Assembly (NCBI GenBank): GCA_001972305.1
Contig: BDDD01002041.1
Span: 186,001 to 250,000 of the forward strand
Source of the DNA: Cephalotus follicularis
Taxonomy: Eukaryota > Streptophyta > Magnoliopsida > Oxalidales > Cephalotaceae
Direction of reading: 5' to 3'
DNA length: 64,000 nt
Shown: positions 1 through 64,000 of the stretch, piece by piece
Layout: each line of letters starts with the position of its first letter
Numbering within the stretch: the stretch's first letter is position 1
Position numbers and translations under genes: made by a program
The notes under the pieces: model-generated
What the model was told of the DNA's origin: nothing
The model's input: the letters and a program-made list of their open reading frames with translations, nothing else
Database searches by the model: none

Positions 1-1522
1 GAAGCTTAAGGGAAAATCGTCGACACCTTGACTGGTTATGCGAGGACTGAACGTCTAGTTTTGATAAACCGTTGACGCTTAAAGGAAAAGCATTAACGCT
101 TTAGTCTGTTATGCATGATAAACGACAGTGGAAACATTGACACCTGAGGTTCCTACCTCGATGCCTCGATGCCAAGGTTGAAGCGCTGACGCTTAAGTGT
201 CCATGCCTTGAGCGTCGATTCCAAAGAGACATGGCATTGAGGCGTAGACCTTCTGTACTAAGCATTGACACAAAGTGTTAAAGCGCCGATGGTTAGAGGA
301 CAAAAGCGTCGATGCCAAGAGATAAACGGTGACGCTTAAGTGACTGGATTGAACATTGACGCCTATTCGGTACACGTTGACGCGAATTGAGCCTGTTTTG
401 CATTTGAGCCTATGTTTGCATTGCATATTGCTATGGATTGAATTGTAATTGGATTGTTGAATGATTCAAAAATGTTTTATCATTTTGGAAAGTGCATACA
501 TGATTTATTTATAAAAACCATTAGTTTATATGAAAATGTATATTTTTGAAGGATTGAAAAGTTGTTTCAAAAGATTGAAATTTCATTTTCAAAGGATTGT
601 TACACATTTGAATAAATGTATTGTTTCAAGTATTTCATAACTTATAACCTACTTGGAAATGGATTGATTTTGGATTGTGATTGGATTGATGCTGCGCTAG
701 CTGCGTGGCAGAGTTGTCATCGATGGCTGGGGGCGGGATGTACGCCTAGGGGCCAGGAGATGGCCAGGGACTCCCACACACTTTTTGATTACTAAACACA
801 TAGTGCAAGTAACCTGGTTGTTGAACACAGCGTGCGAGCAACCTTGGATTGATTGACTGAACCTTCTTCGAGTCATCCAAAGACGGGGCTGAAGTAGGTG
901 CACGACGTCGAGGCCATGAGATGGAAGCTCGCTTCGTGCGGGATTGGATTGATTGGTCCTTTGGGCATGATTGATGGATTTTATGGTTGTAGCCACTTTG
1001 CATGGTTGCTTACCTATTGGAACACATATACATATATGTATATATATGTACTGTGATATATTGTGTATTGCATCATAATGCATTCATTACATGGCTTTTG
1101 TTGTCGTTGACCCCAAAGTGTATTTATATTTTTGCTACTTAGCCAGTGGATTCGGCTAACCCTATCAATTTCATATTGATGCAGTGGATCGATATCACTT
1201 ATGCTTGGGGAAAACGAAGAGGAGTTCAAGTTGTATTATTTTTGAGTAATGGATTTTTGTAGTAATGGATTAATGTATTGACTGATTTGGTTCATGCTCC
1301 GTTTTGTGGGCAATTGACTATGGTTTGTGTCGATGTTCAACATCTGGTAATATGTAGTATGGGATGCTTATTGCGTTATTTAATTCGACTTATGTTTTAA
1401 ATTCTTCCGCAATGATTATATATGAATTAGAAAGTTTTAAATTTTTTCGTATTTTCGAGTAATCTAAAAATATGTTTATTGCCACTACCTCCGAGTCGAT
1501 ATTGTGAGAACGGGATGTGACA
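1..1522 (+). repeat. G1 5' LTR (3' part only)
   Basis: It aligns along its whole length with about 7214-8755. It ends in CA just before the primer site. Bases 1-350 hold degenerate copies of the TCGA-centred palindrome (GTCGACGC and decayed forms). The pair differs by scattered substitutions, mostly C/T and G/A by eye. Confidence 0.9.
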
Positions 1523-1526
1523 ATAG

Positions 1527-1538
1527 TGGTATCGGAGC
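1527..1538 (+). other. G1 primer binding site (tRNA-Met)
   Basis: TGGTATCGGAGC lies four bases after the LTR end. It matches the usual plant initiator tRNA-Met primer site TGGTATCAGAGC with one A-to-G difference. Confidence 0.85.
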
Positions 1539-1631
1539 ATATATTCATTTTATGCTAGCCTGATAAGTTCCTTGGCAATTAAAAATTGTTTCCTTAAGAT
1601 GACTAATCACATTTTCCTTATAGGAAACAAA

Positions 1632-4577: not shown

Positions 4578-6112
4578 GTCGTAAAGCTATGATAGCTAGT
4601 ACGATGGTGTCCCAATGGAGGCTGTTAGATGATTTTCAAAAAATGGACTCCATTTGCACGATCCCCTGGGATCCTTGTTTCTAGCCTTCAAGCTCAGCCA
4701 TCGTTGCTTGATGAGATTAAGAATGCTTAGGTGTATAATCCTGAATTCCAGAAAATCTAAGAGGATTTGGAGTCGAGGCCTGATTTTTAGATTCATTCTG
4801 ATGGTATACTGAGATTTCGGGGATGACTGTGTCTTCCGAATGATGATGGATTGAAGAGTGACCTACTTTATGAGGCTCATAAATCTCAATACAGTATTCA
4901 TCCTGGTAGTACAAAGATGTATCAAGATATGAAGCAAAATTATTGGTGGCCCGGTATGAAGCGTGAGATCTCTAAATATGTTGCTAGGTGTTTGACTTGT
5001 CAGAGGGTCAAAGCCGAACACCAAAGGCCTGCAGGATTGTTGCAATCATTGCCAGTAGCGGAGTGGAAATGGGACACGTGACTATGGATTTTATTTCTGG
5101 TTTTCCATTGACTCAAAATCGTCATAATGCAGTGTGGGTTATCATTGATAGACTCACGAAGTCCGCTCACTTTCTGCCTACACATGTTACTGATTCAGCG
5201 AGCAAGTTGGCTTGGCTATACATAAAGGAGATTGTGAGATTGCACGATGTTCCAGTGAGTATTGTGTGCATTCAAGATTCGATTTTCACTTCCAACTTAT
5301 CGAAGAGATTACAGACGAATATTGGGACGAGATTGAATCTCAGGACAGCATTTCATACACAGATAGATGGACAGTCAAAGCGTACATCCAGACTTTGGAG
5401 GATATGCTTCGAGCTTGTGTTATTGATTTCAATGGTACTTGGGAGGATCATATTCCCTTGATACAGTTTTCGTACAACAATAGCTATCATTCGAGCATTG
5501 GTATGGCTCCGTACGAAGCTCTTTATGGATGAAATTTGTTGGCATGTGGTCAGAGAGCGACAAATACTTGGGTCAGATCTTGTTGAGGAGACAACAAAGA
5601 AAGTCAAGGTGATTAAAGAAAGGTTGCTTGCAGCACAAAGTCAATGAAAGAGCTATGTCAATAATGTGAAAAAGGAGACCTTTGACTTTTGATGTCGGAG
5701 ATCATGTATTTCTGAAATTTTCTCCTCAGAAGGGTGTTAAGAGGTTTGGGAAAAAGGGCAAGCTAGCTCCACACTATATTGGTCCTTTTGAGATTCTTGA
5801 GAGAGTTGGGGAGGTGGCATATCAGCTCGCTTTGCCTCCCACATTGTCAATTGTGCATGACGTCTTCCATGTTTCTATGTTGCGAGGCTCTACATCTGAG
5901 ATCTATCTCATATATTGTATTATGACTCGGTATCGGTGCAGGATGATCTTTCTTGCGAGGAATTGCCTGTGAGGATACTGGATTGGAAGACTCAAGTGTT
6001 GAGGAAGCGAACCATTCCTATAGTGAAGGTTCAATGGCAGTTCCATCATCTTGATGAAGGAACGTGGGAATGTGAAGATGATTTTTGGAAGCGTTACCCT
6101 TATTTGTTTTAG
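4578..6112 (+). pseudogene. G1 integrase with GPY/F motif and chromodomain, pseudogene
   Basis: The integrase zinc domain (HHCC) lies at about 4860-5010, ending [16 protein letters not shown]. The core follows with MDFISGFPLTQN and RLTKSAHFLPTH; the second acidic region reads IQD instead of the usual DRD. TFHTQ-like and [32 protein letters not shown] segments lie in shifted frames. The GPY/F motif (HYIGPFEILERVGEVAYQLALPP) is at about 5782-5850. The chromodomain (VRILDWKTQVLRKRTIPIVK to the end at 6112) would direct insertion to marked chromatin. At least three frameshifts are needed to read it through. Confidence 0.9.
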
Positions 6113-6156: not shown

Positions 6157-6313
6157 TGTAGCACCCGAAATTTCCATTTGATGTTTTATTGTAATTCTTA
6201 ATGTAATTTATCATGAATTAATGAGAAATGATGGATTTTTCCAAATTATTATGTTTAATTTTGAGTAAAGAATGCTAAGAGTGTTGTATTGGCTTGAAAT
6301 GTTGAAAATTGGC

Positions 6314-6460
6314 CTTAAGCGTCGATGCCCAAGAATAAAGCATCGACACCGAGAACAACAGGCGCACATAAGTTTTCTCCCCACAAAGCATCGACGCCAA
6401 GTGATAGCGTCGACGCCAATGAGCAGACAGAGTTAACGTCACGCTAAGAAGAAAGCGTCA
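6314..6460 (+). repeat. TCGA-centred motif array, block 1 of G1 LTR
   Basis: Degenerate copies of AAGCGTCGACGCC, such as those near 6317, 6340, 6384 and 6404, precede a TATA-like sequence at about 6463. Spacing is irregular, so this is a motif cluster and not a strict tandem repeat. Confidence 0.8.
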
Positions 6461-7206
6461 CCACTTATAAACAAACAACGGACAGATTTAAACATTGTTA
6501 GAAAAATGTGCGAGGAGCAGGTTTTGACCATTGTTCGAATGCTTTGCCACGCCAAGTGGTAGCGTGTTAGACTTGTCCAAGACCTGCAATGACAGTTTTG
6601 TGTCATGCGACAGGTGAGAAATGAGAGAGAGGGAGCAGGTGGCGCCATGCATGCGCAAGAGAAAGAGTGAGTGTGAGACCTAGCAGATGCATGTGTCCGG
6701 AAGGAAAAAGAGAGAGAAAAACGTGCATAAAATGCACACTCTCCATCTTCTTCAATTGGACCTGAAAAGAGAAACAAATAAAGAGAAACGGTGAGAAAAT
6801 AGGAAAAGAGAGGAGAGAAAGAGAGAGATCATTTCTCCATTGGTGGACCCAAAGCTTGAAGGCTTGGAGTTGGACCTGGTTGCAACTACGGGACCAAACT
6901 TGGAGCTGCTGGGGAGCTCAAAAATGCCACTATTCCTTGAGCTTGAAGAGGTGGACTTCGATTCCTAACTTTCAATCTAAGGTAGGGATTATATACATGC
7001 AATTTGGAGTTCAAATATAGGAAATGATCATTGATGATTTGCATGACTATTGCAGATTATGGACTGAATAATTGATGACATGGTTACTGTGAGTAGTTAA
7101 CCTGCCATGCATGATGTGTTTGGTAGTGAATATGGATTGTATTGCATGCATTTGCATGTTGTTTTTACGGGCGTTGAGATGCGTTGAAGAAGACAATGTT
7201 CTGGTC

Positions 7207-7560
7207 TTCTTTAACCGTCGACGCTTAAAGGAAATGCGTCGACGCCTTGATTGGTTATGCGAGGATTGAACGCCTGGCTTCGCTAAACCGTTGACGCTTA
7301 AAGGAAAAGCATTGATGCTTTAGTCTGTTATGCATGATAAACGAGAGTGGAAGCGTTGACGCCTGAGGTTCCTACCTCAAGGCATCGACGCCAAGGTTGA
7401 AGCGTTGACGCTTAAGGGCCATGCCTTGAGCATCGACGCCAAAGAGACATGGCATTGATGCGTAGAGCTTTTGTACTAAGCGCTAACGCTAAGTGTTAAA
7501 GCGTCATCGCTTAGAGGGCATAAGTGTCGACGCCTAGAGATAAACGGTGACGCTTAAGTG
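7207..7560 (+). repeat. TCGA-centred motif array, block 2 of G1 LTR
   Basis: It contains CCGTCGACGCTTAAAGG, GCGTCGACGCC, AGCGTTGACGCTTAAG and decayed forms, spaced about 20-40 bases apart. The same block is at 1-350 in the 5' LTR and, on the other strand, at 34240-34450 and 41375-41510. It lies downstream of the conserved AAGGTAGG block. Confidence 0.85.
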
Positions 7561-8755
7561 ACTGGATTGAACATTGACACTTATTCGGTACACATTGACG
7601 CGACTTGAGCCTGTTTTGCATTTGAGCATATGCTTGCATTGCATATTGCTATGGATTGAATTGTGATTGGATTGTTGAATGATTCTAAAATGTTTTATCA
7701 TTTTGGAAAGTGCATACATGATTTATTTATAAAAATCATTAGTTTATACAAAAATGTATATTTTCGAAGGAATGAAAAGTTGTTTCAAAACATTGAAATA
7801 TCATTTTCAAAGGATTGTTACACATTTTGAATAAATGTATTGTTTCAAGTATTTTATAACTTATAAACTACTTGGAAACGGATTGATTTTGAATTGTATC
7901 ATGGATTGCGATTGGATTCACGCTGCGTTAGCCGCGTGATAGAGTTGTCATCGATGGCAGGGGGCGGGATGTACGCCTAGGGGCCGAGAGATGGCTAGGG
8001 ACTCCCACACACTTTTTGGTTAATAAACACATAGTGCAAGTAACCTAGTTGCTGAACACAGAGTGCGAGCAGCTTTGGATTGACTGTCTGAACTTGCTTC
8101 GAGTCATCTGGAGACGGGGCTGAAGTAGGTGCACGATGTCAGGGCCAGGAGACGGCGGCGTGCTTCGTGCGGAATTGGATTGATTGGTCCTTTGGACATG
8201 ATTGATTTATTGTATGGTTGTATCCACTTGGCATGGTTGCTTACCTATTGGCACACATATACGTATATGTATATATATGTACTGTGATATATTATGTATT
8301 GCGTCATAATGCATTCATTACATGGAATTTATTATCATTGACCCCAAAGTGTATTTATATTTTTGCTACTTAGCCAGTGGATTTGGCTAACCCTATCAAT
8401 TTCAGATTGATGCAGCGGATCGACATCGCTTATGCGTGGGGAGAACGAAGAGGAGTTTAAGCTGTATTACTTTTGAGTAATGGATTTTTGTAATAATGGA
8501 TTAATGTATTGACTGATTTGGTTCATGCTCCGTTTTGTGGGCAATTAACAATGGTTTTTGTGTTGATGTTAAACATCTGGTAATATGTAGTATGGGATGC
8601 ATATTGCGTTATTTAATTTGGCTTTTGTTTTAAATGCTTCCACAATGATTATATATGAATCATAAAGTTTTCAATTTTTTCGTATTTTTCAATAAGCTGA
8701 ATATATGTTGATTGCCACGACCTCCGGGTCGATATTGTGAGAACGGGGTGTGAAA

Positions 8756-15110: not shown

Positions 15111-16007
15111 TATATAATGTAATATAACATTAATTCTCGTTGAAAAATAAAAAGTAAAATAGTTCAGTATATAACAGTAACAATAATTCTCATTTTAAGA
15201 AACAACACAGTACAGTGGGGTTCTGTTTAGAGATAATAGTGTAGTAGAAAACCTTTAATTGTGCATATAGCACTAAGTCCTTGAAAACCTTCAAACAATA
15301 GTATTTATGTGAAATGCTTTGATAGATATAGTATATGTATAACTGTAAGCAATAAGCAATGCCGAACAGTACATTCATTAGCAGCTCAAGGATCAAACAG
15401 TAAATAACCTGTATACTCGATATCAATTTATAAGAATCAAACAATGGATGCATAAGTTGTTCAATTCCTATAATCTGATTACACATAGCCAGGATTGATA
15501 GTTGGAATCATTCTATATGGAAGCTAGAGTAATCAGGAGAATTGAACATGAAATAGGCAGTTAAGCATCGACGGTTTCTACTAAAGTGCGCCAGTTTTAT
15601 TCTAGCGGTTGACTGTTTCCCTTGCATAGTCGATTGTTTCTCTTGAATAGTCGACTGTTTCTATTGAGTAGTCGACTGTGTCTTAAAAAATATCGATTCA
15701 CAATAATAGAGTATGCATTTCACAATTTAATTCACTCCAATATCAACATTCAATCATATATAAACCATCTCAACACAATAGACATGCTATATCTTCAAAA
15801 ACATGTCATAAATCCTACCTCAATTCGCTATCCCAGAATCAATTGATTGATTCTTCTCTTTACTCTCCCATACACCTTCAACTCACTAAATCATCAATAA
15901 TCCAGAATTCAATCCAGGTTTGCATATTAACAAAAGATATAGAACAAAATTCAGTATGTATATAGTAATTGAATAACTATAACAATAATCGAATTCAAAA
16001 ACAGAAG
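15111..16007 (-). repeat. LTR fragment, left part, with CAGTCGACTG-class motifs
   Basis: No convincing ORF. Motifs such as TAGTCGACTGTTTC cluster at 15605-15690. It continues at 17276 after the SIRE-type solo LTR, as shown by the AGAAG duplication. The minus orientation is inferred from the right end at 17994, which reads TATAATAACCGT in reverse and resembles an LTR start. Confidence 0.45.
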
Positions 16008-16125
16008 TGTTGACGATTCAGTCCCAATCCTTGTTTTGATGATAACATATTTGCATTTGACAAGTTTACTTGATGTGCAAGAAATTACAAAGTTCAATAC
16101 CAAAGCAAAACTCATCTGCAGAAGA

Positions 16126-16671
16126 AGACATCGACCTTCAAGAAATGACATCGACGTCCGTACAGAAAGACATTGATCCCTTTCAAGAAGACATCGACGT
16201 CTTTAGTACCAGATGTTACAAGATCAAATTACAATGAAGACATCGTCCTTCCAGTAATGACATCGACGTCCGTACCGAAAGACATCGATCCCTTTCAAGA
16301 AGACATCGACGTCTTTAGTGCCAGAAGTTACAGGTTAATTTTCAATGAAGACATCGATCCCTACATGCAAAGACATCGACATCTGTATAAAAGACATCGA
16401 CGCCTTTCCATAGACATCGATGCCTTTCTAGAGCTACCTGCATTTCCCAGAAAATACATCGACCCCTACAGAAGAAGTCGATGTGATGCTCAAAGATTCA
16501 AATGCTGGAGATTTCCCAGAAATGACATCGACGCCTTTAAAAAGACATCGACGTCTTTTTAAATGGTTTGACTCGGGAAACATGGAACGGCTAGTGTGCG
16601 CACTTCCAACGGCTATCAACGATCAAAGACATCGACGCCTTTACAAAGACATCGACCTCTTTATATCAGCA
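16126..16671 (+). repeat. GACATCGACGTC motif array in SIRE-like solo LTR
   Basis: More than a dozen copies of AAGACATCGACGTCTTT and variants (GACATCGATCCC, GACATCGACGCC) occur over about 550 bases. The array ends about 85 bases upstream of the TATA box, so it occupies the U3 promoter region. The same motif class is in gypsy element G2. Confidence 0.9.
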
Positions 16672-16754
16672 GAAGACAAAATTCAAAGATTGCAACTACA
16701 CTTTTTTAAATCAAAGCTTCCATGAATTATGCAACGACTACAAATCTTTTATGG

Positions 16755-16762
16755 CTATAAAA
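16755..16762 (+). promoter_or_regulatory. TATA box of SIRE-like LTR
   Basis: CTATAAAAGG lies in the expected U3/R position of this LTR, downstream of the motif array. Element S has CTATAAATGG at the equivalent place. Confidence 0.65.
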
Positions 16763-17275
16763 GGAAGATTGAAACCTCAGAAGAAAAAAACAACAATTCA
16801 GAATTATTCAACAAGAATTACACAACATCAAGAGAGATATCAAATTCAAGCATTCTAGTGTGTAAAATCTCAAAGTGCTCAATAGTGTTCTAAAAAGCTT
16901 CTAAGCTTTATCCTTTGAGATTTTCTGAGTGTTTCACATTGTGAGCTGTATCATTCATATCAACCTATTTGAGAGGTTATCTTGTAAACACTTTCAATTA
17001 CTTGTAAAAGAGGAGAATCCTCTAAGGTCTTGTGATTGAGGTCAATCACGAAATTGTAAGGTATAACGAATTGCTGCCTTAATCAATTCGAGATAGTGGA
17101 AACTCAAGGAGCTCCCTTGGGAAAAGTGGACGTAGGCAAGAGTTAGCCAAACCACTCTAAATTCGGAGAAGTTTTTTTTCCTTGACTCTTTACATTTAAG
17201 GTTTTTAAATTTTTGATATTTACTTCAATATTCAATTCACCCCCCTCTTGTATATTGCAAGAGTGTTTTATTTCA

Positions 17276-20697: not shown

Positions 20698-20702
20698 TTA
20701 CC

Positions 20703-38077: not shown

Positions 38078-38147
38078 ACTCTTCTCTGGCGATTTCCTGG
38101 CAATTTTCTCTCAAAAATCGAAGATTAACCTTCATACTACTTCAACC

Positions 38148-39951: not shown

Positions 39952-40230
39952 TAAGTTTGTAAGTTTGGTTCTGGGGAGAAATGGTGAAATTGAGAGAGAT
40001 TGGGAGAGAGTATGAGAGAGAATTTGAGAGATAGCATATAAAAGCATCATGGGTTTAATGACAAAGTAAAATATTCCTTATATGACTAAGGGGGAGGCAA
40101 TAAACTCAGGGGGAGCTATTGTTTTGAGCACTTATCTAAGTTCTCATGTTTTGCATCATATATACTTTCTTGTTATTGTTTATAACTTAACAATTATTAT
40201 GCTTTAAATGTAACAAATTTTGTCATCATC

Positions 40231-40244
40231 AAAAAGGGGGAGAT
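40231..40244 (+). other. S polypurine tract
   Basis: AAAAAGGGGGAGAT lies directly before the 3' LTR start at 40245. Confidence 0.9.
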
Positions 40245-44639: not shown

Positions 44640-47402
44640 TGTAACACCCCCGGACGGCGGGAGTCGTCACAGGGTCATATCATACATAACATTACATATT
44701 AAATCATAAGTTTACTTTATTAGCCAATAACAGCCAAAAACGTGGAAGTCTTATCAAAACATTAAAAGTTAACCATTTAACATATTAAGTAGTTGCGGAA
44801 AACTCAAAACATAATTCAGTTCCAATTTAAAAACATAAAACATAATAATCCATGTTTCTGACCACTAAACATAACATAAGGATCACTCTCCTATGGATCC
44901 AACACATAGGGTGGTCATCACTCAATCACACTTTCCCCCGCTGCTCCTGGAAACCTGCTGCATGGAAAACAAAATGCGGTTGAGCAAACCTCAGTACGGA
45001 TAAGGGAAATAAAACAGTAAGTGGTAATTTAAAAACATTAGTAAATCAATAATAACGTAACAGAAATCTTTAGCAGATAAAACAGTTTAATCATATTCAA
45101 ACAACAATTGCATGTCTTTCGAAACAATTTCGGAACATTTCAAAACATTATAAATCATAGTTCATAAAAACATACTGAGCCATATACATATCACATATCA
45201 TAAATTTTGGCAAGGGAGGCGCTAATTGCACATGCCCACTAGAATTGAAGTGTACGACACTACACAAGTCAATTCTCACATACACATATCCGATCACACC
45301 TCGGACCATATATATGAATTCACCTCAGATCACATAAACTAGAATCGATTCATACGCCTCTATCATACATAGCGGATCCACAAATCCACCTCATGGGATT
45401 CGTTCATACACTCAGAGACACCGTAGTCTAATCACACCGCTACGGAAGTGTCACGTCCCCGTGCCAGGCCTACGACGTGCCTATGGATACGCCCCATAGG
45501 TGGGTACAATACTCAGTATTTATTTCAAAATATAATTGATTTAACAAAATCAATTCAAAATCACATAAAATATGTTTCCTCACAACATATTCAGAAAACC
45601 GCTCACAACGGTATCATAACATATTGTATCATAACATATCGTATCACAACATATCGTATCATTCATATCGCATGGATAAAGTCAGAATCATTTAGAATGT
45701 CAAACCAACTTTATATTCAAAATGTGTCAAAAACCATAAAACATCGTTGATTTTATAAACGAAGATGCTTAGCAAAACAATTTCAGTTCGAATGTCAGAT
45801 AGCCAAGGAACAGAAAATCCGTACCTTACGCGCTCACAAACTACTTACGAATGGGCGATTTTAAACGGAATCCACTTGAAACACAACAATCTAAAAAGGC
45901 ATTCAAAATCATACGTGTAAGAGTCTAAGACGCATCAGAAGCATTGAACTGACTCTTAATAGTGTTTGGAAAAGACTCAGATCGATTCGAGGATCAAACG
46001 AATTAAAACAGTTGAAAACAGTACATTTCTGGGCAAAACAGTCGACTAAAACAGGGCTCCAGTCGACTGGGGAAGCAAAACAGTCGACTATTCATAATGT
46101 CCAGTCGACTACTCAAACTAAAGTGCAGGCAGTCGACTGTGTTCATGCCTCCAGTCGACTACTCAACCTAAGGCAGTCGACTGCATTCATCTGGCAGTCG
46201 GCTACTCAACCATTCCAGCCGACTGTCCACAGAGACAGCCGACTGTTCTGGGCGACAGAACAGTTGGAACTTGAAAATTCAATGCAGAAAAGAGTTTAAA
46301 CAATTATAACATTGAACCAGACGTACGTGGTAATAAATATATGACATAATATGACTTATGGGTGACATAAAAACACATAATTGACAAGAAAACGACCTGA
46401 CAGTGGGTTAACTTACAAAAGGGAAAAGAAAGCATGCATACATGTGTGTCCAGATTCTATCTTTAATCGTTTACAGATGTTTGAAAACCAGTTTGTGACA
46501 AGTTATGGTGCACACAACATGCTGACAACTTACTAATACCATAACAGAACATATAATTATACAAGAGATCAAAACCAATGGACATGGGAACATAAAACTC
46601 AATTTACACATTGCCACAAAACCATAGTAGAAAGGAACGAATTAACTGACCTTTAGTGGTATTAAGAACACAAAAAAATAGCAGGAGGAACACTAGCACA
46701 TACACACAATCTGTTGTGACAAAACAGAGACCAAAAAGAAACCAAGGGAAACCAAAACAAAGAAAAGTTTAGCAAACCCAATGAATTCAACTTGAAGAAC
46801 AACTAAGGATCGAGATTACCTCTTCAGACTTGAGGAAATCGTTTACACAACAGCTTCATAGACACCACAAAGAGAATTCGGCAATGACATTTGCAGATAA
46901 GAGGAGGTAACATATTAATGGCAATGTCATTCTTTAAAGGGAAAGGACGAGACAAAATCTGCTATAAAGGGAAGAAAGGAGGATTTGTGGGGAATTAGAA
47001 TAGGAAAGAATGGATTGAAAACGAGTGGAATTGATGGTGGAGGGGGTGACTTCGGGTGAAGGAGGGAAAGGAATAGGAAATAAGAAGAAAAGGAAAGAAA
47101 GAAAAAGGAGGAAAAATAAGAAAATAAGGAAAAGGGGAAATAAGGAATTAATAATAAAAGGGATTTTAAAAAAATAAAAGATAATAACTTGTTTTTAATA
47201 AAGTAATTTTGATATAAGAAAATAATTTAAAGACCCAACCCAACATAGCATAACATACCCAAAACTGGACTGGTATCAGTCAACCCAAATCACATAAGCC
47301 CAATTCATAGGGAAACCGAACTTTAAAATTAATCACAATTAAAAAGCCTGAGAACACATATAAAATCCATAAAATATATTTACGAACGAGCAGGGTATTA
47401 CA
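44640..47402 (-). mobile_element. Gypsy-type solo LTR (2763 bp) in copia B
   Basis: Ends TGTAACACC and GGTATTACA are flanked by perfect ATACA duplications (44635-44639 and 47403-47407). No coding domain lies inside. Minus orientation is inferred because in reverse the end reads CCGGGGGTGTTACA, like G1, and the GAAGAGGTAATC block matches the conserved LTR block. An array of CAGTCGACTG palindromes lies at 46035-46260. The joined flanks restore the copia pre-integrase sequence. Confidence 0.93.
46035..46260 (-). repeat. CAGTCGACTG palindrome array
   Basis: Copies include a perfect 12-base CCAGTCGACTGG at 46059-46070 and GGCAGTCGACTGC-like sites; later ones decay to CAGCCGACTG. At least ten sites occur in about 225 bases with irregular spacing. 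Confidence 0.9.
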
Positions 47403-55636: not shown

Positions 55637-56012
55637 TGTAACGCCCGGGATTTTCATAAAGTGTAAGGTGGTTTTTACAATGTAATTTATGCATTGAATT
55701 AATGAGAATTATAACTTTTCCCTTTTTGTAATGTTAAACATGGGCAAAAGTCGAAGTGTGGGTGCTGAAACAGGGCGGGCAGCCGACTGCCAGGGAGAGG
55801 CAGTTGACTGGACCCTGTGGGAAGGGACCAGCTGCCTGTTGCGAGAGGCAGCCGGCTGGATAGTGTCGGCAGGGATAGCCGACTGCCAGGTCTAGGCAGT
55901 CGACTGTCAATAGGTCTGGCAGCATAACGTGCGTGCCAGACTGTTGGTGGAAAAAGAGAGAGTGTTTTGTTTTAATGTGGCCAGAGAGAGGAGAAGAGAG
56001 AGAGGGTTGTAT
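55637..56012 (+). repeat. Outer gypsy-type LTR, left part
   Basis: It starts TGTAACGCCCGGGATTTTC, inserted in the copia C leader. CAGTCGACTG and CAGCCGACTG motifs cluster at 55780-55915. It is interrupted by G2, with TGTAT at 56008-56012 as the duplicated target, and resumes at 63244. Confidence 0.85.
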
Positions 56013-56767
56013 TGTCACACCCCGTCTTTCCACAACATAGACAACATATAGGTGGTAAAGCAATCAACATAAGGTAATCCAGCTCATACAAAATTACCAA
56101 CAATTAAAATCCTTCGATAGCGGAAGCAACAACATAAATGAGCCGAAAATAAAAACACATCACGCATCCCATACTACGTGATGCCCGATAATCCAAACAT
56201 AACTATTGATCGCCCAAAACGGAGCGTGAAATAATACATCAGCACGAGATAACAAAATATCATTTGTTACAGAATCCAAATCAATGTTCAATAACCAAAA
56301 GTACATAAACAAGAAGATAACAAGCCTTCTCTTTAAATCTCCGTGCATGCTCCATGTCAAGACTACTCCATCAATCTGTTACAGTAGGGGTTAGCCTTTG
56401 TCCTCACTCGGCTAAGTGAATAAACCCATAAAATACAGTTCGAGTCATAAGATAAAGAGTATCATGAATGAATGCATAATGATGAGCAATGACATGTAAT
56501 TTTTACAGTAAAAATACATCTGTATGTACATATAAAAATATATGCATGCTCACAATACAAGTATAACTCATAAGTTATATCAACACAAGCAGTAAATATG
56601 TTCCCAAAAAGGAACCAGACAAGCCAATCGTCATGACCGTGTCCACCTTCTGGCCCCAACGTCATGCACTCTTACTCCATCCCGAACCGTTTTGGAGCAA
56701 GTCCTCAGTAAGTTGTTTAGCACGACGGCTAAACCAACAGCAAGTTACCAGCACGGTGGCCAGGTAA

Positions 56768-56860
56768 TCAACAAGTTATTAGCACGGTGGCTAATAATCA
56801 ACAAGTTATTAGCACGATGGCTAATAATCAACAAGTTATTAGCACGATGGCTAATAATCA
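56768..56860 (-). repeat. 30-base tandem repeat, three units
   Basis: The unit includes CAACAAGTTATTAGCACG and ends GGCTAATAAT; three copies here. The 5' LTR has only two (61285-61350). Confidence 0.92.
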
Positions 56861-57354
56861 ACAAGCACAAGCATTTCACAGTACAAGTCAAGCAGTTACA
56901 TATAATTACTTGATCAAATATATTTGTTTAAAATATACTTTTTTGTTCACAAGTTGTAATAAGTCATAAACTTAAAACAATACATTCCTCTTGTCTTTGG
57001 AAATACTTCCCCAATCATTTCGAAAATATATACATTCATAATTTACACATTTTCGCAAATTACATTTGGCTTCATAATCAAACCTTTAAAACATTTCTCT
57101 GTCATTAGAAATACTTCCCTAAACCTTTCGAAAATATATGAATCCATATGTTTACAAATATACATTTTCGTACCCAAATGATCATAATAATCATGCAAGC
57201 TTTTCAAAATGGTTAACACTTTTAGAAAGCAACCATAATGCAAATCACAGTAAAAATGCAAACATATGCTCAGAATGCATCTAGGTTCATTCCTAGAGTC
57301 GTTTCGGGTCTAACGGGTCCCATTCAAGCGAAATCCTACTGAACAGGGGAAAAG

Positions 57355-57700
57355 GCATCGATGCCATACTTAAGGCATCGACGTCTTTATCATACCAGAG
57401 AGTATCAGTATGCATGTCTTGGTTTGGGAGGGTGAAATCCGACCTATAAATCCCTCATGTAATCGAATATCACTCTCTAAACGTGTGCGGAATGCTTCTG
57501 GTTAACAACAACATATCCAGAACATCAAATTGAAATCAAACAGGTGATCCCAAGTGGCTTAAATGACCATCTGAAATGAACATTAGGGTTCAATGATTTT
57601 CCCAGAAAAGGCGTCGATGTCAATCAAAAGACATCGATGTCTTTCACATATTCACATGAAGGCATCGACGTCTTTACATAGGCGTCGATGTCTTCACAAC
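57355..57700 (-). repeat. TCGA palindrome array, inner block, G2 3' LTR
   Basis: It includes a perfect 18-base palindrome AAAGACATCGATGTCTTT at 57627-57644, plus GGCATCGATGCC and GGCATCGACGTCTTT. The 5' LTR repeats the block at 61840-62185. Confidence 0.92.
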
Positions 57701-58439
57701 CCAGAACATCATTTCCACAATTTTAACATACCAAGTCATTAACAAATCCATCCTTTACACAACCAGATTCACGTATTCATGTAATAGTACATGCATGATC
57801 AACTCAGTGTATCACAGTAACACTACAACGAGTCCAGAATCTCAATTCAATCATTAACATGCAATTCACCATGCTATTCATTAACTTAGAACTCAAAATG
57901 CATATATAAATCCATCACTTTCCCCTACCTTATTGTTCCAAGTTAGGAACTAGAAAGTCCACCTCTTTAAGTTTCCAAGTTCTGGCTACCAGCAGCTCCA
58001 AGATTCCTTAGCAACTGCTACCCACGAGCTCAAACCTCAAGCTCCAAGAAAACTCAACAATGGTGACTCTCACACTCACTGTTTTCTTTCCTTTCTTTCT
58101 TCTGGTGTTTTAAAACGAAAGAGATAAGTTGGGAGGGATATTCTTATGTAGATGGCTCTCCCCCAACATTCTTTCTCTTACATATAACTGGCCACCCCCG
58201 AGATCTCTCCCACTTTCCAGGTTTCTGCATTTTCTTTTTGTTTTCTATTCTTCCTTTTTGCAGGTTGCATGTTAGGCTGTATATTCCTTGCATGTTCCAT
58301 GTGAGGGTAGGTTTTAGCATTCCTGGCAATACACTGACATGTCCAACACGTCATAATGCACTTGTAAAGGCATCAGGTAAGGTCCCCAAACAAATCCCCC
58401 TGCATGTTACTCTGCCAGCGAAAAAGCTCGATAGACGTT

Positions 58440-58590
58440 CCTACAAAGGCGTCGACGTCTTTCCTTAGATGTCGATGCCTTTTCCATTTTGTAAGAAGGT
58501 GTCGATGCCTTCCCTCAAGGTCGACGTGCATTCACGTGTACCTCACTCCCCAAAGGCGTCGACGTCTTTCCAAAGACGTCGATGTCTTTG
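58440..58590 (-). repeat. TCGA palindrome array, outer block, G2 3' LTR
   Basis: AAAGGCGTCGACGTCTTT, AGATGTCGATGCC, AAAGACGTCGATGTCTTT and related copies. In element orientation this block is near the LTR start, in U3. Repeated at 62930-63075 in the 5' LTR. Confidence 0.9.
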
Positions 58591-58758
58591 TCCTAAAACA
58601 GTGTCGTTTCAAGCTTTTGACATACTCTTTCCATTCCAAAACCATAACTAGGGTTTGTAAGCATCCTTTGAGTTCAAGACTCAACATTCTCATAAAATCA
58701 AGTTTAAGGTTACATCATAAATCGAAATATTACATTCAGGAAAATACCGGGCGTTACA

Positions 58759-58775
58759 TCCACCCCTCCTTCAAG
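58759..58775 (-). other. G2 polypurine tract
   Basis: In reverse, CTTGAAGGAGGGGTGGA abuts the 3' LTR; equivalent to the tract of G1. Confidence 0.88.
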
Positions 58776-58790
58776 AAATTTCGTACTCGA

Positions 58791-58932
58791 AATTTACACG
58801 GTACTAGAACAAGTGCGGGTAGCGTTCTCGGATGTCCTCCTCACGCTCCCAAGTTGCCTCATCAGGTTTGTGAAACTGCCATTGAACCTTGACCATGGAA
58901 ATGGTTCGGTTCCTCAAAGTCTGCGTCTTCCA
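58791..58932 (-). pseudogene. G2 chromodomain C-terminal remnant
   Basis: In reverse the frame reads TLRNRTISMVKVQWQF, then DEATWEREEDIRERYPHLF and stop, matching the last 46 residues or so of the G1 chromodomain. The sequence upstream is protease, joined at 58931-58935 by a deletion. The protease frame and this frame are not in phase. Confidence 0.92.
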
Positions 58933-59672
58933 TCGAAGTCACAGATAGGCAGTACAATCAGATCTGCATATAGAGGAATGCCTGCCATAGACATCTCACA
59001 ACTCCTATATACCGAGTCAGTATACATAGAAGTCCCGGTCGGTGTACTCACATCAAGTGTATAAGACAATCAGCCAGGGGTGACATCTAAGCAAGATGCA
59101 AAATATGCAGATATAAATGAATGCGATGCACCTGAATCCATTAGTACTATAGCAGAATAACCATATATATACAGAGTACCTCCAACAACAGAAGTCGACT
59201 CTGGAACCACAGTCCGAGCAAGTACAAAACCTCTACCTTTTGCGATGCCCTTGCCGGTGTCCCTTCGCTGTGAAGGCCCCGCCGCGGCCCCGCTGCTGCT
59301 AGCTGGTCCGGTAGGTGCTGTAACCTGGTTTTTCGGGCAATCCTTCATTGAATGGCCAGATGCTCCATACCTCAAACATAGCCCGTTCATCCTCCAACAA
59401 TCCTTCTGCAAGTGGCCCTTCTGACCACAGTGATAACAGGCCCCGGTCCCCGCATTACTCCCCTGACTAGGAGTCCTCAGTGTGGTAGTCTGCCCAAATC
59501 TGTTCTTTGATGACTTACTCGGAGAACCACTGTTTTGCCATCTCGAAGAAGCTGGTCTTGTCGGGTTCTGTTTAATTTGTTGCACTCGAGCCCTCTCTGC
59601 TCGATCCTCACCAGATATGCTCTCTAGCAGCCTCGCCTTCTGTTCGACCTCTGAAAAGGTACCCAGCTCCAT
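58933..59672 (-). pseudogene. G2 gag C-terminus, zinc knuckles and partial protease
   Basis: From MELGTFSEVEQKARLLES it runs through a Ser/Thr-rich linker to CYHCGQKGHLQKDC and CLRYGASGHSMKDC (second knuckle with Tyr for Cys), then the protease with Asp-Ser-Gly-Ala at 59128-59139. A TGA at 59070 interrupts; the same frame continues to LIVLPICDFD, where the deletion junction lies. The missing part begins where G1 reads VILGMDWL. Confidence 0.92.
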
Positions 59673-60397
59673 AGCCTAATCATCGACCGAAGGTCCGGTC
59701 GCAAACCCTTCAAAAACCTCCTTATCTTTTTCACATCATCAGCTACCTGATATGGTGAATGTTTGGATAGCTCTATAAACCTGGCCTGGTACTCGGCCAC
59801 AGACATCTCCCTTTACCGTAACTCCAGAAGCTCTCTCTCTCTCCATTCTTGCTCCATTCGAGGTACATAGGAATTGAGGAACTCTGTCTGGAACCTTTCC
59901 CATGTAGCGTCAAGTCCAGCTGACTCCCACTTTGCTTTGACCATCTCCCACCAGCGAGTGGCCTCTCCCCATAGGTGGTACACGGCAAATTTCAGCTTCT
60001 GAGCATCGGTACAGTCCATTACTGTAAAAATCTTCTCCAAATCTTGAAGCCATCTTTCAGCAATTGTGGCATCAAGTTCACCCCAGAAACTAGGTGGATT
60101 CTGTCTCAAGAATCTCTCGATGTCCCTTCCAAATTGACTACCATCCTCTCCCGGGCAGTGATCGGGAGCTCTGTGTTGTGGTCGAGCTTGCGCGTAGTAT
60201 TGGCGCATCTCCTTCGCATTGGCCATATTAAAGGCCATCTGTTGTTGGAAGTAGTCAGCAATCCGGGTCATTGGGTCTCTATTATCTTGAGGCACATTCA
60301 CTCCTTCAGGGGCATTGGCTCCAGCGGCACTAGCCCTGCCACGCGTTCTTCTTCGGTCCATTTGTTCATATATGGAAAAGATGTCATTAGCAATCAT
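59624..60397 (-). pseudogene. G2 gag N-terminus and core
   Basis: The likely start is the Met of MDRRRTRGRASAAGA at 60364; a Met 11 codons upstream (60397) is in frame. The capsid core reads PPSFWGELDATIAERWLQDL, VMDCTDAQKLKFAVYHL, RWWEMVKAKWES and NSYVPRMEQEWRERE. One TAA at 59813 replaces an expected Gln (CAA to TAA), and a single lost base near 59677 shifts the frame into the zinc-knuckle part. With only these two lesions this is the best preserved gag in the window. Confidence 0.92.
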
Positions 60398-60513
60398 CTC
60401 AAGGAAACAATTCGTTATTTGCCAAGGAACTTATTAGCTTGGATAAATTCCTTCATCCAACTATTCAGTTGCCGAGGATAGTATCCCAGCGATAGCTTAT
60501 ATAAGGAATATAA

Positions 60514-60525
60514 GCTCTGATACCA
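60514..60525 (-). other. G2 primer binding site (tRNA-Met)
   Basis: In reverse TGGTATCAGAGC, four bases after the 5' LTR end; exact match. Confidence 0.93.
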
Positions 60526-60529
60526 CTGT

Positions 60530-63243
60530 TGTCACACCCCGTCTTTCCACAACATAGACAACATATAAGTGGTAAAGCAATCAACATAAGGTAATCCAGC
60601 TCATAAAAAATTACCAACAATTAAAATCCTTCGATAGCGGAAGCAACAACATAAATGAGCCGAAAATAAAAACACGTCGGGCATCCCATACTACGTGATG
60701 CCCGATAATCCAAACATAACTGTTGATCGCCCAAAATGGAGCGTGAAATAATACATCAGCACGAGATAACAAAATATCATTTGTTACAGAATCCAAATCG
60801 ATGTTCAATAACCAAAAGTACATAAACAAGAAGATAACAAGCCTTCTCTTTAAATCTCCGTGCATGCTCCATGTCAAGACTACTCCATCAATCTGTTACA
60901 GTAGGGGTTAGCCTTTGTCCTCACTCGGCTAAGTGAATAAACCCATAAAATACAGTTCGAGTCATAAGATAAAGAGTATCATGAATGAATGCATAATGAT
61001 GATCCATCACATGTAATTTTTACAGTAAAAATACCTCTGTATGTACATATAAAAATATATGCATGCTCACAATACAAGTATAACTCATAAGTTATATCAA
61101 CACCAGCAGTAAATATGTTCCCAAAAAGGAACCAGACAAGCCAATCGTCATGACCGTCGCCACCTCCTGGCCCCAACGTCATGCACTCTTACTCCATCCC
61201 GAACGGTTTTGGAGCAAGTCCTCAGTAAGTTGTTTAGCACGACGGCTAAACCAACAGCAAGTTACCAGCACAGTGGCCAGGTAATCAACAAGTTATTAGC
61301 ATGGTGGCTAATAATCAACAAGTTACTAGCACGATGGCTAATAATCAACAAGCACAAGCATTTCACAGTACAAGTCAAGCAATTACATATAATTACTTGA
61401 TCAAATATATTTGTTTAAAATATACTTTTCCGTTCACAAGTTGTAATAAGTCATAAACTTAAAACAATACATTCCTCTTGTCTTTGGAAATACTTCCCCA
61501 ATCATTTCGAAAATATATACATTCATAATTTACACATTTTCGCAAATTACATTTGGCTTCATAATCAAACCTTTAAAACATTTCTCTGTCATTCGAAATA
61601 CTTCCCCAAACCTTTCGAAAATATATGAATCCATATGTTTAAAAATATACATTTTCGTACCCAAATGATCATAATAATCATCAAGCTTTTCAAAATGGTT
61701 AACACTTTTAGAAAGCAACCATAATGCAAATCACAGTAAAAATGCAAACATATGCTCAGAATGCATCTAGGTTCATTCCTAGAGTTGTTTCGGGTCTAAC
61801 GGGTCCCATTCAAGCGAAATCCTACTGAACAGGGGAAAAGGCGTCGATGTCATCCTTAAGGCGTCGACGTCTTTATCATACCAGAGAGTATCAGTACGCA
61901 AGTCTTGGTTCGGGAGGGTGAAATCTGACCTATAAATCCCTCATGTAATCGAATATCACTCTCTAAACGTGTGAGGAATGCTACTGGTTAACAGCAACAT
62001 ATCCAGAACATCAAATCGAAATCAAACAGGTGATCCCAAGTGGCGTAAATGACGATCTGAAATGAACATTACGGTTCAACGATTTTCCCAGAAAAGGCAT
62101 CGATGTCAATCAAAAGACATCGATGTCTTTCACATATTCACACGAAGGCATCGACGTCTTTACATAGGCTTCGATGTCTTCACAACCCAGAACGTCATTT
62201 CCACAATTTTAACATACCAAGTCATTAACAAATCCATCCTTTACACAACCAGATTCACGTATTCATGTAATAGTACATGCATGATCCACTCAGTGTATCA
62301 CAGTAACACTACAACGAGTCCAGAATCTCAATTCAATCATTAACATGCAATTCACCATGCTATTCATTAACTTAGAACTCAAAATGCATATATAAATCCA
62401 TCACTTTCCCCTACCTTATTGTTCCAAGTTAGGAACTAGAAAGTCCACCTCTTTAAGTTCCCAAGTTCTGGCTACCAGTAGCTCCAAGATTCCTTAGCAA
62501 CTGCTACCCACGAGCTCAAACCTCAAGCTCCAAGCAAACTCAACAATGGTGACTCTCACACTCACTATTTTCTTTCCTTTCTTTGTTCTGGTGTTTTAAA
62601 ACGATAGAGATAAGTGGGGAGGGATATTCTTATGCAGATGGCTCTCCCCCAACATTCTTTCTCTTACATATAACAGGCCACCCCCGAGATCTCTCCCACT
62701 TTCCAGGTTTCTGCATTTTCTTTTTGTTTTCTATTCTTCCTTTTTGCAGGTTGCATGTTAGGCTGTATATTCCTTGCATGTTCCATGTGAGGGTAGGTTT
62801 TAGCATTCCTGGCAATACACCGACATGTCCAACACGTCATAATTCACTTGTAAAGGCATCAGGTAAAGTCCCCAAACAAATCCCCCTGCATGTTACTCTG
62901 CCAGCAAAAAAGCTCGACAGACGTTCCTACAAAGGCGTCGACGTCTTTCCTTAGACGTTGATGTCCTTTCCATTTTGTAAGAAGGTGTCGATGCCTTCTC
63001 TCAAGGTCGACGTACATTCACGTGTACCTCACTCCCAAAGGCGTCGATGTCTTTCCAAAGACGTCGATGTCTTTATCCCAAAACAGTGTCGTTTCAAGCT
63101 TTTGACATACTCTTTCCATTCCAAAACCATAACTAGGGTTTGTAAGCATCCTTTGAGTTCAAAACTCAACATTCTCATAATATCAAGGTTAAGGTTACAT
63201 CATAAATCAAAATATTACATCCAGAAAAATAGCTTGCGTTACA
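60530..63243 (-). repeat. G2 5' LTR (2714 bp)
   Basis: It pairs with 56013-58758; the length difference of 32 is mainly one 30-base unit. It has the same inner (61840-62185) and outer (62930-63075) palindrome blocks. Confidence 0.95.
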
Positions 63244-64000
63244 TGTATTCTCCATAAAAATGTGTTTTCTCTCCTTCAATCTCCACCGTTTTCGATGAAA
63301 GGGGAAGAGAATTCAAAAAGTGTGAAAGATAAGGGAGAGGAAGTGAGTGTGTTTGTGATCCAAGAGCCTTGTGTGGGCTGTGTTTTTGGGATGCTTGGAC
63401 CACTGACCGGAGAATCCGGATCCGTTGGAGTTGCTGGACGAATTCGGAGGCTTGGAAACTTGGATTGGAACTTAAAGAGGTGGATTGCAATTCCTAACTT
63501 GGAATTCTAAGGTAGGAGAAATCTCATAATTGTAGTTTAAGTTTTGTTATAATGGACGTTAATGGGTGAAATGCATGCTACGGACTGTGTTATGAGCATA
63601 GATGTGTGTTGTTGCTGTTGAATGCTCGTATTTGGTTGGATTAAAGTGTGGATGATGTGCATTTTAACTGCTATTTTTTCCTACTGGTGTAAATCCAGTC
63701 GACTGCCAAGGCGGGCAGCCGACTGGCGGGCTTGGGTAGCGGGCTATTCGGTGCTAACAGCCGATTGCTCAATGAGGAACAGCCGACTGGATGTAAGAAC
63801 CAGTTGATTGTCCATACGTTTGATAGAACATGTCTGCATAAGGTTGTGTAGTGGACTGCCAACAGAGGGCAGCCGACTGGGTGAGGAAGGCAGTCGACTG
63901 CCAGCAGAAGGCAGCCGGCTGGATAAGGAGAACAACCGACTGTCAAGAGGAGACAGCCGACTGTTGTAGGAGGTAGCCGACTGCCAGAGCTGGGACAGCC
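63244..64000 (+). repeat. Outer gypsy-type LTR, right part
   Basis: It continues the LTR begun at 55637. The conserved AAGAGGTGGATTGCAATTCC/AAGGTAGG block is at 63475-63517. From 63695 to the window edge there is a dense CAGTCGACTG/CAGCCGACTG array, with about fifteen sites. Short ORFs here are by-products of the array. Confidence 0.85.
63695..64000 (+). repeat. CAGYCGACTG array in outer LTR
   Basis: Examples are CCAGTCGACTGCC at 63697, GGCAGTCGACTGCC near 63890 and many GCAGCCGACTGG copies. C/T variation at the fourth base breaks the palindrome in many copies. Confidence 0.9.

Follow-up and report, generated by a model that had tools for sequence, protein, structure and literature searches.

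The window, a 64,000-nt stretch of the 1.58-Gb Cephalotus follicularis genome, holds gypsy and copia LTR retrotransposons, some nested in others, whose LTRs carry arrays of TCGA-centred palindromes. The arrays were confirmed both in the window and across the genome, and fall into three classes, named in our model by the palindromes AAAGCGTCGACGCTTT, AAAGRCRTCGAYGYCTTT and RGGCAGYCGACTGCC. The elements and arrays are as follows.

6157-8753 (end approximate), forward strand: 3' LTR of the gypsy element G1, class 1 (self-BLAST, unit list and unit scan; gypsy domains upstream)
6316-6467 and 7212-7536, forward strand: arrays 1 and 2 of the G1 LTR (unit list)
15603-15681, forward strand: weak array of class 3 within an LTR-like, unclassified insert (period-21 tandem repeat), with more units at about 17711-17774; interrupted by the SIRE-type solo LTR
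16008-17275, forward strand: SIRE-type solo LTR, class 2, array 16144-16662, TATA at about 16754 (74% and 70% identity to the S LTR ends)
33701-34487, reverse strand: G1' LTR continued on the other side of the nested S, class 1, units 34264-34440 (75% identity to the G1 LTR)
34488-41361, forward strand: element S, SIRE lineage of copia, nested in G1' (gag_pre-integrs, rve and RVT_2 in copia order)
34611-34978, forward strand: class 1 array of the S 5' LTR, 5' of a TATA at about 35070, last dyad 100 bp from the TATA
37893-38002, forward strand: second (pre-ENV) class 1 array in S, after the RNase H region and ahead of the env-like ORF (unit scan)
38067-39140, forward strand: env-like ORF of S (Pfam Transposase_32, E 1.7e-21)
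40245-41361, forward strand: 3' LTR of S, array as in the 5' LTR (94.5% identity to the latter over 927 columns)
41362-42566, reverse strand: 5' part of G1', a G1-type gypsy LTR split by S, class 1, units 42253-42384 and 41377-41487 (66.8% identity to the G1 LTR)
44640-47402, reverse strand: G4, gypsy-type solo LTR, class 3, array about 46035-46260 (superfamily assigned from its ends only)
55637-56012, forward strand: first piece of the gypsy-type LTR G3, class 3, array 1 at 55777-55909 (start 74% identical to G1'; interrupted by G2)
56013-58757, reverse strand: gypsy LTR of G2, class 2, array 1 at 58445-58589, array 2 at 57607-57695 plus 57371-57388 (gag and RVP_2 domains; unit scan)
60530-63243, reverse strand: second G2 LTR, arrays as in the first (95.9% identity)
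63249-64000, forward strand: continuation of the G3 LTR, class 3, with array 2 running from 63693 to roughly the end of the window (resembles the G1 and G2 LTRs)

The coding order of G1 (RT, RNase H, INT) is that of gypsy, and a frame-limited fragment at 5900-6109 gave no Pfam Chromo match; its LTR start was taken as 6158 in computations and reads TGTAGCACCC. Close variants of the U3 terminus TGTAACACCC were seen by eye at the ends of G1', G2, G3 and G4. Del (Tekay) gypsy elements similarly have long LTRs that start with TGTAACACCC or the like and contain a CpG-rich, variable stretch close to the 5' end, although the cluster holding all eudicot copies is predominantly without CpG islands, and the main text of that study does not contain the string 'palindrom' (Cruz et al. 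2014, PMC4029996). S has INT before RT, as in copia, and apparently lacks a gag region; its PPT/att sequence, GGGGGAGATTGTTG, consists of a PPT octamer followed by the AT/TG attachment site, and the PPT is present in more than one copy.

The original prediction stands in substance, with sharing between superfamilies wider than claimed and with some strings and places amended. It had put AAGCGTCGACGCTT in the LTRs of G1 and S: class 1 arrays do lie there, but the exact string is absent from either element's own LTRs, which hold shorter or degenerate units such as GCGTCGACGC (34832, 6407 and 7236). The three exact window copies of AAGCGTCGACGCTT (34308, 37967 and 42254) comprise two in G1' and one inside S, 5' of the env-like ORF. 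Likewise, the class 2 string AAAGACATCGATGTCTTT occurs exactly in the two G2 LTRs only (57627 and 62113), its proposed variant AAAGACGTCGACGTCTTT has no exact match anywhere in the window, and the SIRE solo LTR holds near matches only. The class 3 string CAGTCGACTG was found as predicted in G4 (46060, 46130 and 46174) and in G3, the LTR that starts at 55637 and resumes at 63249-64000 (55897, 63696 and 63891); in the insert at 15111 it is exact only at 17715, in a weak array. Imperfect units are frequent, those of the S LTR pairing in 4-5 of 8 columns. Genome-wide, AAGCGTCGACGCTT occurs at 18,108 places against 15 for its reversed control, and the class 3 string GGCAGTCGACTGCC at 8,918 against 21.

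As predicted, the units far exceed shuffled sequence in the sampled pieces. Allowing up to 4 mismatches (5 for class 2), and taking as reference the mean over 200 dinucleotide-shuffled versions of each piece, we counted class 1 units in the S LTR (8 versus 0.06), the S pre-ENV region (4 versus 0.03), G1 (11 versus 0.07) and the two G1' pieces (5 versus 0.05 and 3 versus 0.03), class 2 units in the SIRE solo LTR (16 versus 0.42) and G2 (11 versus 0.77), and class 3 units in G3 (5 and 7, each versus 0.03) and G4 (5 versus 0.08). The first piece of the 15111 insert gave one class 1 and one class 3 match and the second none; six control stretches held 0 or 1 unit per class, and the LTR of B, the sole other copia element tested, held none. 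At this tolerance classes 1 and 2 cross-match, class 1 matches numbering 3 in the SIRE solo LTR and 5 in G2, and class 2 matches 6 in G1, 6 and 1 in G1' and 2 in G4. Of two made-up palindromes with class 1 flanks, the first matched 4 times in the S LTR and once in its pre-ENV region, the second once each in that region and in G1. An unsupervised motif search free of any symmetry constraint (5 shuffles per run) separately recovered the class 1 palindrome in the S LTR (copia), G1 and one G1' piece (gypsy), and a partial motif in the SIRE solo LTR; it did not recover the palindrome in the S pre-ENV region, the other G1' piece, G2, G3, G4 or the 15111 insert. A class-free palindrome count was in excess in some pieces only, and was also high in a control, the internal region of B (8 versus 2.8).

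CpG content might seem sufficient to account for the arrays if, without need of a specific binder, they served to maintain CpG density and so to attract methylation or resist it. The arrays of classes 1 and 2 are indeed CpG-rich (observed/expected 1.25-1.79, the remainder of these stretches giving 0.14-0.97), but class 3 arrays are not (0.61 and 0.70, against 0.65 and 0.80) and yet keep the same spacing. Since density requires neither symmetry nor class concordance, we consider this explanation very improbable.

Classes do not segregate by superfamily in our sample. Two had been predicted to be common to gypsy and copia; all three proved to be, occurring in gypsy LTRs and in SIRE copia elements, with class 3 in copia resting on one locus (L023). 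Matrices built from the window copia arrays (classes 1 and 2) pick out gypsy arrays at other loci, and the matrix from a window gypsy array (class 3) picks out a copia array elsewhere. The class 2 SIRE at L010 carries RT, RNase H and ENV, and the class 3 SIRE at L023 RT and RNase H, with ENV not matched there; copies of the pre-ENV array were found in S, L010, L027 and L031 and, less surely, L023. The class 3 array at L032 was not counted for SIRE, since the locus showed neither a PPT/att nor an LTR start of the S type. The best tree, built for 17 gypsy sequences, requires 5 class changes. Sharing of this kind suggests that one family of proteins reads the palindromes of both superfamilies.

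The original prediction offered convergent capture of sites as one origin of the sharing. Alternatively, recombination or template switching could have carried array-bearing pieces of U3 from one superfamily to the other, in which case sharing reflects descent of the arrays. With units held fixed, spacers are more similar than chance between the SIRE solo LTR and G2 array 2 (0 of 300 shuffles as high) and between the S LTR and G1 array 2 (4 of 300), and class 2 units show the same left-right asymmetry in both superfamilies. However, the other three copia-gypsy comparisons are not clearly above chance (19, 35 and 103 of 300), the similarity matches among the pieces compared are short or of low identity and almost all confined to the arrays, and several events would be needed to produce the concordance of separate arrays described below. 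Exchange is unlikely in our estimate; it concerns origin only and is compatible with protein binding.

Spacing and concordance bear on the candidate dimeric sites. Within the window, 30 of 66 adjacent dyads lie 20-21 bp apart, where 3.0 are expected and 20,000 random placements reached at most 11. At 34 loci elsewhere in the genome the same distance, two helical turns, separates 236 of 429 neighbouring dyads (266 at 19-22 bp, 3 at 12-18 and 13 at 23-27), counts that are not independent, spacing and class being partly inherited through kinship within each superfamily and through a 112-bp duplication in the SIRE solo array. The rule is seen in gypsy (80 of 149) and in copia (71 of 142, a count that takes in three arrays of the window), applies to units of 16 and of 18 bp alike, and gives a modal spacing of 20 or 21 in 22 of 24 arrays.

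Such periodicity might also arise were the arrays minisatellite-like, i.e., neutral tandem duplications of a unit of about 21 bp that is palindromic by accident. Several arrays show periods of 20 and 21 bp in Tandem Repeats Finder, which also picks up the 112-bp duplication, and class 2 spacers are more similar within an element than between elements (0.44 versus 0.02). Spacers of classes 1 and 3, in contrast, are no more alike within elements than between them (0.30 versus 0.31 and 0.36 versus 0.34, with one G1' spacer taken two bases off), and neutral duplication gives no account of sites common to unrelated superfamilies, of array concordance or of a fixed distance to the TATA; we give it very little credence.

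Class is concordant across whole elements. The two arrays of gypsy LTRs have a common majority class in all 16 LTRs scored (0 of 20,000 shuffles as high), a count that excludes the 7 of 20 fetched gypsy loci without two clean arrays of their own. L014 was left out because a class 3 cluster found 1.8 kb inside its LTR was attributed to a second, reversed element; were it the LTR's own, it would be one discordant case. Pre-ENV and LTR arrays of SIRE elements agree in 4 of 4, which 1,635 of 20,000 shuffles match and which is not significant alone. Of 16 SIRE stretches tested, 11 have a TATA near the sites, and in 9 of these the last dyad lies 100-101 bp 5' of it, a distance found in one class 1 and one class 2 SIRE family; the class 3 SIRE at L023 gave no TATA match. 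Between G1 and G1', units are not conserved above the rest (79 versus 79% and 75 versus 83%), nor do they show extra conservation after a CpG split.

A role in RNA has been proposed for maize Sireviruses, whose LTRs likewise have a palindrome-rich cis-region with strong predicted folding but a different sequence, CACCGGACNNNGTCCGGTG (Bousios 2016, as related in parts of PMC5311732 and PMC10760457); here, hairpins formed by the arrays would enter small-RNA pathways, or the arrays would function in some other way as structured RNA. On the sense strand all 13 arrays tested fold better than 60 shuffles (z -2.5 to -8.0). Palindromy alone already yields such folding, however, and 2 of 5 control stretches of the same LTRs fold better too (z -2.6 to -4.4 over both strands). 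Moreover, the antisense strand folds better in 10 of 13 arrays: sense RNA pairs worse because mirrored mismatches are more often A-C (308) than G-T (175). The two-turn spacing rule would be unexpected of RNA, and we regard this role as distinctly improbable.

We favor, with a probability of roughly 0.55, the reading that the palindromes are sites for cooperative dimeric DNA-binding proteins serving both superfamilies. Enrichment, place, spacing, concordance and sharing are the observed part of this model. From them we infer protein binding, the identity of the binder, and activation rather than repression. The binders would form a homodimeric family, most likely host transcription or chromatin factors, whose members occupy one DNA face as cooperative pairs separated by two helical turns, each palindrome class being read by a different member. 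The arrays may drive the LTR promoter and, in SIRE, a second promoter before the env-like gene. Gypsy and SIRE copia would then depend, in this genome, on the same few factors, and a change of factor in an element would entail a change of all its arrays together. The original idea of homodimer sites gains from the two-turn spacing, the within-element concordance and the TATA distance fixed in two SIRE families, all read from sequence. An element-encoded binder was set aside: the S ENV matched only the SIRE stretches L010, L027 and L031 among the loci, and G1 fragments were without such a domain. The analysis found no binder, and none of the papers listed on plant factors for GTCGAC palindromes contains GTCGAC.

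In Tnt1, a plant LTR retrotransposon family of copia, the U3 contains an activator box, box I, that is not known to be shared with gypsy. That box is named as symmetric in PMC2829016. The same source holds a close precedent, one that the original prediction missed: palindromic arrays in Sirevirus LTRs and 5' of ENV, the RM boxes, were described there in 2010 (Bousios et al., PMC2829016). Like these, the dyads described here are palindromic, have many copies per LTR and vary in motif by family, and in SIRE elements they lie 5' of the TATA and again before ENV. RM boxes form CpG-rich clusters, as do the arrays of classes 1 and 2 here but not those of class 3. Two RM motifs in Table 3 of that paper are TCGA-centred (Vitis CGGTCGACCG and Tnd-1 ACAATCGATTGT), and all but Tnd-1 have a CGG-CCG core; our unit matrices, unlike these, have TCGA centers without that core, and the same classes fill gypsy LTRs. 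RM boxes were termed Sirevirus-specific because they are absent from other Ty1/copia elements, gypsy lying outside a comparison whose data set was Ty1/copia. The available text mentions no spacing rule and no sharing beyond Sireviruses and names no common RM binder, nor does the later literature searched. Among the matches listed, mostly outside subscription papers, there is no earlier report of palindrome arrays in gypsy LTRs. What is new here is the two-turn dyad spacing, the within-element class concordance, the 5 class changes on the gypsy tree and the fixed TATA distance of SIRE. Elsewhere, the copia palindrome is also the top motif in structured regions of Helitrons (PMC10760457, in part), and palindromic motifs adjoin a beet minisatellite, a separate case (PMC2820488, in part). 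Pattern and protein-guided scans gave no match in viral contigs, from which the source genome or near genomes may be absent.

Cross-superfamily sharing, strict two-turn spacing and whole-element concordance provide sequence evidence for a specific trans-acting reader and for the form of its site, and the three palindromes could serve as baits for that reader. If the model is true, two large groups of repeats in the genome come under the action of a single protein set, and class switching could be traced as an evolutionary contest. It is possible, at somewhat less than even odds, that a dimeric-protein family with differing specificities, binding as cooperative two-turn pairs, provides transcriptional or anti-silencing partners to both superfamilies, that partners are switched by concerted array replacement, and that the classes record repeated switches of allegiance in a contest between element and host.

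A pattern search placed the polyC-rich integrase signal near the LTR end in S, the SIRE solo LTR and L026, and did not find it in the remaining SIRE stretches. Both solo LTRs of the window are flanked by 5-bp target-site duplications read by eye, ATACA at G4 and AGAAG at the SIRE solo LTR, and the ends of the latter are 88% identical to the LTR of the coding SIRE at L010.

The sharing of three classes of TCGA-centred palindrome (classes 1, 2 and 3) between gypsy and copia LTRs, their two-turn spacing, their concordance across whole elements and their repeated change of class point to putative specific dimeric readers, a step that we infer from sequence patterns. As far as the literature searched goes, gypsy use of the same classes, two-turn spacing, whole-element concordance and repeated class change are new. 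For 13 Sireviruses, passages of Bousios et al. 2010 (PMC2829016) report palindromic repeated motifs that precede TATA in the LTR and also precede ENV, with one palindrome listed per family; no single factor whose binding site they all share was found there. The same passages term the repeated motif Sirevirus-specific relative to other Ty1/copia elements, and the specificity claim, as worded there, is confined to Ty1/copia. The SIRE arrays described here are of this known kind but consist of other palindromes. Elsewhere, passages of PMC10760457 describe structure concentrated in LTRs for maize copia, with Ty3 generally lacking an obvious peak, passages of PMC4029996 report CpG islands in Del gypsy LTRs, with predominantly none in the cluster holding all eudicot copies, and a passage of PMC5311732 names palindromes as small-RNA hotspots. 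The passages of PMC3414828, PMC2820488, PMC11656987 and PMC6911290 contain nothing matching these shared arrays.

Nested plant LTR retrotransposons make up most of the 64-kb window:

1 to ~8753: G1, gypsy element with Retrotrans_gag, RVT_1, RT_RNaseH, Integrase_H2C2 and SH3_Tf2-1
16008-17275: SIRE solo LTR, 5-bp target-site duplication AGAAG (by-eye reading)
~20700-30642: B, further copia element
34488-41361: S, copia element whose gag_pre-integrs, rve and RVT_2 domains follow copia order, with an env-like ORF after them
44640-47402: G4, gypsy-type solo LTR, 5-bp target-site duplication ATACA (by-eye reading)
55637-56012 and 63249-64000: G3, LTR of a third gypsy-type element, split by G2
56013-63243: G2, short gypsy element within the G3 LTR, gag and protease domains detected

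S bears Sirevirus hallmarks (a PPT with an AT/TG att site and a polyC signal), and its env-like ORF matches Transposase_32; this Pfam family, described as a "putative plant transposon protein", here corresponds to an env-like ORF in a SIRE copia element (38067-39140). S is hosted by a G1-type LTR (G1'), and its insertion at 34488 directly adjoins units of class 1, its own class. The insertions at 34488, 16008 and 56013 place three nested elements each within an array-bearing LTR. The G2 LTRs (~2.7 kb, 95.9% identical) flank just 1.8 kb (58758-60529) with gag and protease domains, and G2 is presumably a short non-autonomous element.

The original prediction of palindrome arrays in these LTRs was borne out at counts far above shuffles, but exact long palindromes are few, several positions had been misplaced, and imperfect units form the bulk of every array. 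Against 200 dinucleotide shuffles, class 1 units numbered 8 in the S LTR (vs 0.06), 4 in the S array preceding the env-like ORF (pre-ENV; vs 0.03) and 11 in G1 (vs 0.07); class 2 units 16 in the SIRE solo LTR (vs 0.42) and 11 in G2 (vs 0.77); and class 3 units 5 and 7 in the G3 pieces (vs 0.03 each) and 5 in G4 (vs 0.08). The same scan found no units of any class in the B LTR and 0 or 1 unit per class in six control stretches. A motif-free count of near-perfect palindromes (7/8 pairs) exceeded shuffles in the SIRE solo LTR (6 vs 0.5) and G2 (9 vs 1.2), lay within the shuffle range in G1 (5 vs 1.2) and G1' (2 vs 0.4 and 2 vs 0.5), and was not above shuffles in the S LTR, the left G3 piece, G4 or the 15111 insert, an unclassified LTR-like insert cut by the SIRE solo LTR; an internal B control was also elevated (8 vs 2.8). 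TCGA is the centre of 14 of the 24 such palindromes in the SIRE solo LTR, G2, G1 and G1'.

Genome-wide (1,577,397,061 assembled bases), the class 1 pattern AAGCGTCGACGCTT occurs at 18,108 places and the class 3 pattern GGCAGTCGACTGCC at 8,918, their reversed patterns at 15 and 21, respectively. We sampled 20 hand-picked gypsy loci from G1 RNase H matches (150 scored of 62,104 candidates) and 11 copia stretches from S RT matches (121 scored of 42,765). The scanning matrices came solely from window arrays: the class 1 matrix from S, the class 2 matrix from SIRE solo and the class 3 matrix from G3. The scanned set of 34 loci (204,208 bases; L003 excluded for its overlap with L002, L005 less 3,619 letters) yielded 220 class 1, 81 class 2 and 233 class 3 sites, against 15, 9 and 47 when the sequence was reversed; the class 3 matrix is therefore the least specific of the three.

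Neighbouring dyads (single palindromic sites) lie 20 or 21 bp apart in 30 of 66 cases in the window, against a mean of 3.0 and a maximum of 11 when equal site numbers were placed randomly in the same spans (20,000 trials). Motif-free dyad distances fell at 20-21 bp in 8/33 cases vs 0.14 in shuffles. Across the 34 loci, 236 of 429 spacings are of 20-21 bp, 266 of 19-22, 3 of 12-18 and 13 of 23-27. The 20-21 bp peak persisted at four thresholds (264/446, 236/384, 192/320 and 148/239 spacings ≤60 bp). The 20-21 bp spacing accounts for 80/149 in gypsy (13 loci) and 71/142 in copia (13 stretches including three window arrays, without L032, L034 and L035), and is modal in 22 of 24 arrays, the exceptions being L015 and L016. 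Because copies are related, none of these spacing counts is independent of the others. Lesser peaks appear near 28-29, 41-45 and 48-50 bp in the fetched loci with classes pooled.

Sharing between superfamilies, predicted for two classes, extends to all three, since gypsy loci carry every class and SIRE stretches carry class 1, class 2 (L010, besides the SIRE solo LTR) and class 3 (the single locus L023). A class 1 LTR array is present in 8 of the 11 S-family stretches; L031, whose LTR lies outside the stretch, shows just the pre-ENV array, no LTR junction could be recognised in L032, and the 45 bp of LTR included in L035 contain no site. The L010 SIRE has RT (67% identity to S), RNase H, a distant ENV match (29%) and PPT/att. 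Its class 2 arrays occupy two places, one ahead of ENV and one in the LTR, and the ends of this LTR match those of the SIRE solo LTR at 88% identity. L023 (RT 71% and RNase H 69% identical, PPT/att) has class 3 arrays at both expected places; searches for ENV and S-type LTR ends there gave no match. Unit matrices of gypsy and copia agree class by class, an agreement partly built in because sites were chosen with common matrices; independent support comes from an unsupervised motif search, which recovered class 1 both in S and in G1. Class 2 units of both superfamilies share one asymmetry, the left half tending to CA and the right half keeping CG (16144-16662 and 57371-58589 in the window; L006, L010 and L017), a bias that would not be expected of a pure homodimer site.

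Array DNA may also have been exchanged between copia and gypsy, a possibility raised by spacer similarity above chance in 2 of 5 comparisons. Against specific readers, a comparison of G1 with G1' shows the units no more conserved than the sequence around them. All 13 arrays also fold well as RNA, which is unavoidable for palindromes. Mirrored mismatches in the sense strand favour A-C over G-T (308 vs 175), and antisense folds better than sense in 10 of the 13, both of which argue against selection for sense RNA structure.

The case for dimeric readers draws further on class changes within a conserved layout. The SIRE solo (class 2) and S (class 1) LTRs are similar at both ends and dissimilar in their arrays. 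Likewise, the G1, G2 and G3 LTRs resemble one another in parts that lie outside the arrays, carry class 1, class 2 and class 3, respectively, and place their arrays similarly, ~140-310 bp from the LTR start (array 1) and from ~820-1060 bp onward (array 2), as the G1-G2 alignment supports. Within each superfamily, then, class has changed but array position has not. On the gypsy RNase H tree (17 of 21 sequences, without L010, L013, L022 and L024; class labels assigned by hand), the classes need 5 changes, the minimum possible being 2; their distribution is clustered (mean of shuffles 7.8; 1/200 equally low) without being bound to clades. Good support is confined to 2 of 14 inner branches, which by themselves require fewer changes: 2 for class 1, 1 for class 2 and 2 for class 3, each class taken separately.

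Arrays 1 and 2 share a majority class in 16/16 gypsy LTRs, with 0/20,000 shuffles as high. This set comprises 13 of the 20 fetched loci plus G1, G2 and G3, with array ranges hand-set from matrix-scan sites; L009, L010, L012, L013, L014, L022 and L024 have no two clean arrays of their own and were omitted, and L014 might conceal one discordant case. Pre-ENV and LTR arrays are concordant in 4/4 SIREs, which alone is not significant (1,635/20,000 shuffles as high). A TATA-like box with sites ≤220 bp upstream was found in 11 of 16 SIRE stretches and not in L023, L027, L030, L031 or L035. In 9 of the 11 (S twice, SIRE solo, L010, L025, L026, L028, L033 and L034), which come from two families, a class 1 and a class 2 family, the last dyad lies at -100 or -101 from TATA; L029 has it at -122 and L032 at -114.

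Between arrays 1 and 2, a short block reading CCTAACTTGGAA...TCTAAGGTAGGG in element orientation is common to the G1', G2 and G3 LTRs and, by eye, G1 (~6945-7000, 41730-41779, 57919-57981, 62405-62461 and 63457-63521). It resembles an exon end bearing a splice donor, in which case array 2 would fall within a leader intron.
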